A stretch of DNA of 64,000 bases from Gammaproteobacteria bacterium (lineage in GTDB: Bacteria > Pseudomonadota > Gammaproteobacteria > Xanthomonadales > Wenzhouxiangellaceae), in contig PXBD01000050.1 of NCBI GenBank assembly GCA_003565625.1, positions 58,113 through 122,112 on the forward strand, given 5' to 3'. Below are positions 61,355 to 64,000 of this stretch, piece after piece. A program made the position numbers and the translations under genes. Under the pieces are notes generated by a model that was given only the letters and a program-made list of their open reading frames with translations, had not been told where the DNA came from and ran no database searches. Every line of letters begins with the position of its first letter. Position 1 is the first letter of the stretch.

Positions 61355-61969
61355 CTAGTCGCCGAACTCGTCGATGTAGTCCTCGATCGAGGCCTTGACG
61401 ACTTTGGCGGCGTGTTCATGGCCATAGATCTCGTCGATATGGGTAGTCACGGCTTCGCCCGGCAGCAGTTTGTAGGTCAGGAAGTAGTGGCGCAGGCGTT
61501 CGGCCAGGCTGTCGGGCAGTTCGCTGATATCGCGCGCATCACCCCACAAAGGGTCGTTTTCGAGTACGGCCACGATCTTGTCGTCCGCTTCCTCGTCGTC
61601 GATCATCTGCAGGCCGCCAATGACGCGCACGTTGAGCACGACTTCAGCGCGGGTGATCGGGCGCTCGGAGAATACGCAGATATCCAGCGGGTCACCGTCA
61701 CCGCGCTTGGCCTGGGGAATCAGGTCACCGACCCGCTGCCCGCAGAACGTGCGCGGAATGAACCCGTACAGGGTAGGGGGCTGCGATGACGTGCGCTGGG
61801 GGCGGTCTACGCGCAGATAGCCGGTTTTTTTGTCGATTTCGTACTTGACCGTATCGAACGGAGTGATTTCGATGTAAGCCTGGAGACGGTAGGGCGGTTC
61901 GCGGCCGACTTCCAGGCCGTGCCAGGGGTGCGGGCGCCAGCGATAGAACGGTTGCGGAAATGAGGGCAT
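61355..61969 (-). CDS. ppa: inorganic pyrophosphatase
   Basis: [27 protein letters not shown]...[10 protein letters not shown]...[16 protein letters not shown]. Confidence 0.94.
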
Positions 61970-62012: not shown

Positions 62013-62666
62013 TCAGACCGCCTGTAGGCGGTAAACGGTTTCGTGCAGCGCCTGGATGCCGCGGTTCTGGAATTTCGGGCTTTCGGCTAGAACGTCGCGC
62101 CGCTCCAGGACCTCATGGTCGAAAGCCTCGAACCCCGATACTTCCTCAAGTGGAACCGAGAAAGGCGGTCCATCAAATTGATCTTGTTGATATTCCAGTG
62201 TAACAAGAAGCCCGCATGCCCGGTCTTCCAGGCAGTCGCGCAGATGGCTGATGTAGGCAGCGCGCATGGCCGGGGGCAAGGCAATCAGCGCGGCCCGGTC
62301 ATAGAAGGCGCGAAATCTCCGGGCCGGTCGATAGGCGAAAAAGTCGCCTTGCCACATCAGGATGTCGTCGGCCCGGTAGCCGGGCAAGCCGCCGGGCGCG
62401 CCGGGGTCGACGAGTTGCGGTTGGCGGTTCCACTCGGCGAAGAAGTCGCGAACGGCGATCGGGTCGAGTTCCACGCCATGCACCGGGTGGCCCAACTGGT
62501 GCAGCCAGTGCAGATCCAGTGATTTCCCGGCCAGCGGGACCAGGACCGGTTCGTTGTGGCCGACCTCAAGGTCGGGCCAGTGTCGCTCCAGGCTCCAGTG
62601 AACCTGATTGCCGTGGAAGCCGATTTGTCCGCTGCGCCAGCGCTGGTGCCAGAATTCTTTGTCCAT
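62013..62666 (-). CDS. tpm: thiopurine S-methyltransferase family protein
   Basis: MDKEFWHQRWRSGQIGFHGNQVHWSLERHWPDL...VLVPLAGKSLDLHWL...AFYDRAALIALPPAMR. Confidence 0.94.
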   Translation of the reverse strand: MDKEFWHQRWRSGQIGFHGNQVHWSLERHWPDLEVGHNEPVLVPLAGKSLDLHWLHQLGHPVHGVELDPIAVRDFFAEWNRQPQLVDPGAPGGLPGYRADDILMWQGDFFAYRPARRFRAFYDRAALIALPPAMRAAYISHLRDCLEDRACGLLVTLEYQQDQFDGPPFSVPLEEVSGFEAFDHEVLERRDVLAESPKFQNRGIQALHETVYRLQAV

Positions 62667-62719: not shown

Positions 62720-62747
62720 ACTTTACATAATATACATTATGCGAACT
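62720..62747 (-). other. dif: XerCD recombination site dif (28 bp), probable chromosome dimer-resolution site/terminus
   Basis: Minus strand AGTTCGCATAA-TGTATA-TTATGTAAAGT; E. coli dif GGTGCGCATAA-TGTATA-TTATGTTAAAT (from memory), 24/28 identical, centre identical. Confidence 0.9.
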
Positions 62748-62908
62748 ATTGGATGAGCCGGATGCGGCAGCGACGCGAAGCCGAAACACAAACAAGTAAA
62801 TCTGGAAACTTTCCCCAAGCAACCCCGGATTACTAGATTGCTGGTTTCAGTTGTGAGGGCTCATTATTTGTTACTAGTCAGGACGGAGTCGAAGATCGGT
62901 GCTGTAAG

Positions 62909-63283
62909 TTATACGTAGCCAGCTGCTGCGCTTGATTTGTATAGTTGCCAAATATCTTCAGAAACAGCGATTTCCTGACGAATGTGAGGACTTTTAAGAT
63001 CAATTACTCTTAGTCCTCCCCCATCGTCCGCAGCAATTGCTTCGACCCGATGGAAAACGTCGCTGCACGCAGCTGCAAGCTCTGCAAGTGCGTTGATCTT
63101 CGGCAGAGCATCCGCCAAGTGATGCCCATGCGGATCGGCGATGGACACATGCACCTCTTCGGCATTCCCATGGAAAAAGATAAAATCTGGACACATCCGA
63201 CGCCAGTTGCCCTGCCCGTCTTGGTGGGCAATGGCCACTCCGGCTGCTGACATTGTAGTCGGCGACTGCATGTCAGCCTCCAT
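62909..63283 (-). pseudogene. C-terminal remnant of a type III restriction enzyme R subunit / DEAD-DEAH helicase
   Basis: GNWRRMCPDFIFFHG...VHVSIADPHGHHLADALPKINALAELAAACSDVFHRVEAIA...LRVIDLKSPHIRQEI; matches only the extreme C-terminus of that family; no helicase motifs upstream. Confidence 0.7.
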
Positions 63284-63507
63284 GAGCGCAAGCCGAGTGG
63301 CGTGCCTGAGCCGTTTCGGTCGTACTACGCACTCTGACAGCCCCGGCGAGGCTGGTGGCGCGAGCGGTTCTTGTTTACGCGTTTCTGGATGCAGTCCCGA
63401 GGGCAGTTTCCTGAGCCCGCCGGCCTGGGGCGCCTGCTGGTGACTTTGCGCTCAAGGAGAACGCCACGACGCGGGCAACAGAACTCTTCCCTTTTCCAAC
63501 CGACCAT

Positions 63508-63552
63508 TCCCGATTGCGGTGAGAGCCGTCCCAAATGCGGAACAGATTCCGC
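63508..63552 (+). promoter_or_regulatory. candidate tandem enhancer (UAS) sites for a bacterial enhancer-binding protein
   Basis: TCCCGATTGCGG (63508) and TCCCAAATGCGG (63529), 10/12 identical, 21 bp apart; second overlaps dyad GCGGAA-CAGA-TTCCGC. Confidence 0.5.
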
Positions 63553-63606
63553 CTTTAGCGTTCTGTTGTAAGTTTCAACTAACTGATTTTCAGACAAAAT
63601 TGATTT

Positions 63607-63621
63607 TGGCATGAATTATGC
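63607..63621 (+). promoter_or_regulatory. candidate sigma-54 promoter upstream of the efflux adaptor gene
   Basis: TGGCATG-AATT-ATGC versus TGGCACG-N4-TTGC; GG-N10-GC spacing exact. Confidence 0.5.
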
Positions 63622-63633
63622 CTAAAGGGGGGC

Positions 63634-64000
63634 ATGGACATACAACGCCCAGACCTCAAACGAAAGCGATTCATCCGCTACCTGCTCTACTCTGCGGCAG
63701 CGATTGGTACCTTGGCGATCGCTTTGATTAGCATCGCGAGCCTTGATACAGCAGCTCCGCGCATCGACCGTGCCTCGGTCTGGACCGGGACTGCCGAGCA
63801 GGGGGAATTCGTGCGCGATGTGCGCGGTCCGGGCAATCTGGTGCCGCGCGAAATTCGCTGGATTCCGACGGCCAGCCCCGGACGGGTCGAACGCATCCTG
63901 GTGCGACCCGGCGCACCGGTGGATGAGGAAACCGTCCTGGCCGTCCTGTCCAATCCCGTTCTGGAGGGTGAAGTCGAAGAAGCCGAATGGGCGATTGCCA
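63634..64000 (+). CDS. HlyD/RND-type efflux periplasmic adaptor subunit, partial (continues past window end)
   Basis: MDIQRPDLKRKRFIRYLLYSAAAIGTLAIAL...VRDVRGPGNLVPREIRWIPTASPGRVERILVRPGAPVDEETVLAVLSNPVLEGEVEEAEW; membrane anchor then lipoyl/barrel-sandwich half. Confidence 0.82.
   Translation, partial: MDIQRPDLKRKRFIRYLLYSAAAIGTLAIALISIASLDTAAPRIDRASVWTGTAEQGEFVRDVRGPGNLVPREIRWIPTASPGRVERILVRPGAPVDEETVLAVLSNPVLEGEVEEAEWAIA

Follow-up and report, generated by a model that had tools for sequence, protein, structure and literature searches.

The 28 bp at positions 62720-62747 of the window (the whole stretch of 64,000 nucleotides that was analyzed) are almost certainly the chromosomal dif, the chromosome-dimer-resolution site, of a Wenzhouxiangella species. 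This genus is the probable one for the source genome, because contigs of the relatives compared with it recur among named records as Wenzhouxiangella. The identification draws on the sequence of the site, its single occurrence and its conservation, on its position opposite dnaA and the convergence of FtsK-orienting sequences upon it in relatives, and on the presence of genes for XerC, XerD and an FtsK with a gamma domain. The dif is of a known, ordinary kind, and it lies in the right place for a chromosomal one.

On the minus strand the site reads AGTTCGCATAATGTATATTATGTAAAGT; its sequence, coordinates and strand had all been given exactly in the earlier note on this DNA. The 28 bp are palindromic, have the 11-6-11 layout and conform to the gammaproteobacterial consensus. 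Compared with the E. coli dif sequence, the site is identical at 24 of 28 positions (mismatches at positions 1, 4, 24 and 27), the same count as in the earlier note. The two arms and the centre (Table 1) were named through this alignment, following the established assignment of the XerC and XerD arms in E. coli dif. One hundred dinucleotide-shuffled versions of the window contained no dif match. The site falls in an intergenic region, preceding the tpm start codon by 53 bp and separated by 161 bp from a relic ORF, just as the earlier note had put it between tpm and a gene scar. Its description there as a canonical dif is borne out by the exact architecture and the lack of chance matches, together with the single copy and the conservation described below.

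Table 1. Coordinates of the dif site and of associated features (window positions unless a locus is named)
Feature	Position	Strand	Remark
dif	62720-62747	-	28 bp, 11-6-11 layout
XerC arm, AGTTCGCATAA	62737-62747	-	11 bp; named via alignment to E. coli dif
dif centre, TGTATA	62731-62736	-	6 bp; alignment to E. coli dif
XerD arm, TTATGTAAAGT	62720-62730	-	11 bp; named via alignment to E. coli dif
tpm, thiopurine S-methyltransferase	62013-62666	-	XerD-arm side of dif
Gene scar, 124-aa ORF	62909-63283	-	XerC-arm side of dif; tblastn matches to plasmids
HlyD/RND periplasmic-adaptor-like gene start	63634-64000	+	weak match; cut by contig end
KOPS-like GGGTAGGG	61771-61778	+	closest on tpm side, aimed at dif
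KOPS-like CCCTGCCC	63210-63217	-	GGGCAGGG read on the minus strand; beyond dif, aimed back at dif
xerD	L035 1459-2331	-	
Contig breaks on XerC side of dif	window 62748-64000; L043, L044, L045, L053, L054, L056, L057, L058, L059, L062		
Contig breaks on XerD side of dif	L060, L061, L063		

We identified only one dif in the draft genome (2,806,240 bases in 95 contigs, 89.5% complete) when the 19-bp core was allowed up to three mismatches. With the centre left free, the whole draft yielded, besides the same site in reverse, weak matches only, and these did not exceed the count for a control pattern. The genome-wide search for the 28-mer that had been proposed in the earlier note thus returned a single place, which supports a chromosomal dif; the many similar copies that would have spoken against it do not occur in the 95 contigs.

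The site is also conserved well beyond this genome. Of 30 Wenzhouxiangella genomes, 25 carry a dif whose XerC arm is identical, with one copy in each except G028. All five genomes that gave no match are drafts, including one that is 99% complete (G012), and their dif may lie in assembly gaps or at contig ends. Dif-like cores occur in most genera of the order, and the exact 23-mer is found in Pseudomonas, Halomonas, Xanthomonas and many other Gammaproteobacteria. Our literature search found no paper naming both Wenzhouxiangella and dif. Outside the 28 bp, the flanks are mildly conserved within the genus. As the two flanks do not pair clearly more often than column composition would predict, the outer inverted repeat CATCC...GGATG was rejected as a palindromic extension of dif.

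Since the source genome is a draft, the placement of dif opposite dnaA and the skew beyond it could be measured in relatives only. In three single-contig genomes of the genus, the distance from dnaA to dif amounts to 48.1% (G018), 48.7% (G027) and 53.0% (G026) of the chromosome, i.e. dif lies opposite the origin. Sampled GC skew in the closed relative G026 is mostly positive before dif and mostly negative after it, with the change near dif. For the draft itself the evidence for the terminus is indirect and comes from skew and KOPS up to the site: on its own contig, GC skew stays above zero (0.021 to 0.057) in all 10-kb steps of the 122 kb that precede dif. The earlier note had regarded the region as the probable chromosome terminus, and would have given weight against dif to a location far from the GC-skew switch with a better dif elsewhere. 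The antipodal position in three closed relatives, the sign change of the skew in G026 and the reversal of KOPS uphold the terminus, and skew, dnaA position and single copy all agree with dif. As a separate observation, the closed chromosome of G018 (C1) carries seven identical-scoring DnaA-like ATPase matches (E 8.1e-9) spread around it, which probably represent an IS21-type transposition helper gene.

KOPS are octamers that guide FtsK, and the E. coli FtsK-orienting motif is GGGNAGGG. Within 10 kb of the 34 dif loci this motif points toward dif 173 times and away from it 7 times. Its polarity was evaluated without presupposing the motif, both against 42 permutations of the same letters and among all 8-mers. 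It proved to be the strongest of the 42 permutations, while among all 8-mers over the same loci and distance the first rank for dif polarity went to GGGCAGGG (118 toward versus 5 away). The same pattern is seen at larger scale. On the contig of the window, KOPS counts in the two orientations are 20 versus 2 in the 121 kb left of dif and 0 versus 1 after it, and in the sampled DNA of G026 they are 50 versus 7 before dif and 3 versus 33 after it. FtsK-orienting sequences therefore converge on dif, and as far as sequence can speak to function, their reversal at the site is the strongest evidence obtainable.

The genome encodes all three components of the machinery. XerD (TIGR02225, 338.5 bits against a curated cut-off of 329.6) is encoded next to a DsbC-like gene and XerC (TIGR02224, 338.2 bits against a curated cut-off of 335.2) next to hslU, and FtsK with a gamma domain (102 bits) is encoded on the same contig as dif, 88 kb away. 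By analogy with the E. coli system, from which we infer binding and cleavage by XerCD and activation by FtsK at dif, an odd number of crossovers between sister chromosomes would produce a chromosome dimer. KOPS octamers would then load septal FtsK and aim its translocation toward the terminus. On arrival at dif, FtsK would activate XerD first and XerC second; together these recombinases would cut and swap strands at the two dif copies of the dimer to give two monomers.

The neighborhood of dif is asymmetric. On the XerD side, tpm adjoins dif also in four relatives (L039, L049, L050 and L058), and gene families common to several species are found almost only on this side. On the XerC side, the scar ORF had no match in Pfam, NCBIfam or PDB searches. 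It aligns solely with the last ~118 residues of a ~858-residue DEAD/DEAH helicase from a Dietzia plasmid, whose gene adjoins a DNA methyltransferase gene, and it also matches the C-terminus of proteins that bear the name type III restriction subunit R. Because only the C-terminal ~118 residues are matched, the ORF is considered a remnant of a truncated restriction-type gene. A stretch matching the scar occurs twice on one contig (C170) of G013 and once in G018, where it lies inside a longer open frame. The end of the window coincides with the end of contig C38, 1253 bp past dif.

This asymmetry bears on a different reading, namely that host XerCD integrated an element here (a CTX-type phage, an IMEX or a genomic island), with this site as its attL or attR and another dif beyond the contig end. 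Xer-exploiting elements at dif include the CTX phage, the phages Cf and phiLf of Xanthomonas, a member of the same order as the source genome, and IMEX, and all use the same kind of site. We consider this reading improbable. It draws on the XerC-side DNA, which differs among species and holds the degraded restriction-type gene with plasmid relatives, and on contig breaks close to dif in several relatives, the majority of them on the XerC side; in G028, moreover, two dif contigs have 62 bp of XerD-side sequence in common and differ in their XerC-side DNA. Unlike at such elements, no second dif and no phage gene was detected in the available stretch. No pair of flanking dif-like sites and no second att site was found in the 1253 bp beyond dif and the ~90% of the genome covered by the draft, in which just one dif-like site occurs at up to three mismatches, also with the centre free. 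In the 1253 bp we found no phage or mobile-element genes, only the helicase relic and the start of the adaptor gene, and this flank gave no phage match. Among 62 dif-side proteins of relatives, the 25 best-represented PHROG or Pfam families include no filamentous-phage family. The suggestion in the earlier note that the flank might host an Xer-exploiting phage or island thus finds no support within these 1253 bp. In any case, a fully functional terminus dif is expected under either reading.

Among draft genomes of the genus, and counting the window, 11 contigs end no more than 2.3 kb from dif on its XerC side, and three do so on its XerD side (Table 1). This bias, like the sharing of gene families almost only on the XerD side, may reflect strain variation beside dif or an assembly effect. 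The two G028 contigs (L059 on C194 and L060 on C307) agree fully over the 62 XerD-side bp and are ~94% identical over ~70 bp of the XerC side before they diverge; they may represent strain variants or an element at dif.

The remaining possibility, an AT-rich palindrome that arose by chance or a resolution site of the plasmid type (cer/pdif), shares with the data only the general resemblance among Xer sites and can practically be dismissed: zero matches are expected, the centre is 6 bp, there is no second pdif, chromosomal genes lie around the site, and KOPS convergence and genus-wide conservation refute it.

The chromosomal dif identified here resembles the dif/XerCD/FtsK systems of Proteobacteria (Carnoy and Roten 2009, PMC2731167; Kono 2011, PMC3025954) in being a 28-bp, intergenic, AT-rich and palindromic 11-6-11 site that occurs once per chromosome opposite the origin, with converging KOPS and with XerC, XerD and FtsK-gamma. 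The distribution of conservation along the site is a point of difference. Carnoy and Roten (2009) described the XerD arm as the more conserved of the two and noted high conservation of A25 (PMC2731167), whereas in Wenzhouxiangella the outer XerD arm varies and positions 1-23 are nearly invariant. Specifically, positions 1-23 are constant in the genus save for one base in one contig-edge copy, and all 25 Wenzhouxiangella species share the outer XerC bases AGTT. A T occupies position 25 in 12 of these species, compared with none of 37 elsewhere in the family and order.

The variation at position 25 appears to parallel that of XerD. The residues aligned to the E. coli MTRQ motif are 213-215 of the XerD of this genome. 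Q221 of XerD is reported to contact dif position 24 (PMC2731167), and judging from the alignment this residue is presumably the Q of MTRQ. With few independent events, the SRQ grouping picked post hoc and the T25 copy of one genome (G001) located at a contig edge, SRQ accompanies A25 in 10 of 11 species, and TRQ, TRA, TRE, TRV or SRV accompanies T25 in all 12. Column 213 ranks first by mutual information among 189 variable XerD columns. In a phylogenetic test, residue 213 or the motif reached likelihood ratios between 16 and 26, the value for the combined motif being unstable between two optimizer runs (19.4 versus 26.0); columns 21, 141 and 238 gave similar ratios of ~16. Since these columns score alike and the optimizer is unstable, the covariation is suggestive only. 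The data suggest that position 25 and the DNA-reading residues of XerD covary, and we put forward only tentatively, as a rather doubtful possibility, that dif conservation is inverted in this genus, with position 25 of the XerD arm co-evolving with XerD residues 213-215.

The dif described here fixes the terminus of the draft chromosome and can now be annotated there. In Wenzhouxiangella, the KOPS motif of E. coli serves as a polarity marker. If the co-evolution were true, the genus would be a natural series of matched recombinase-site pairs, and real covariation would supply naturally occurring pairs with which the reading of the outer arm by XerD could be tested.
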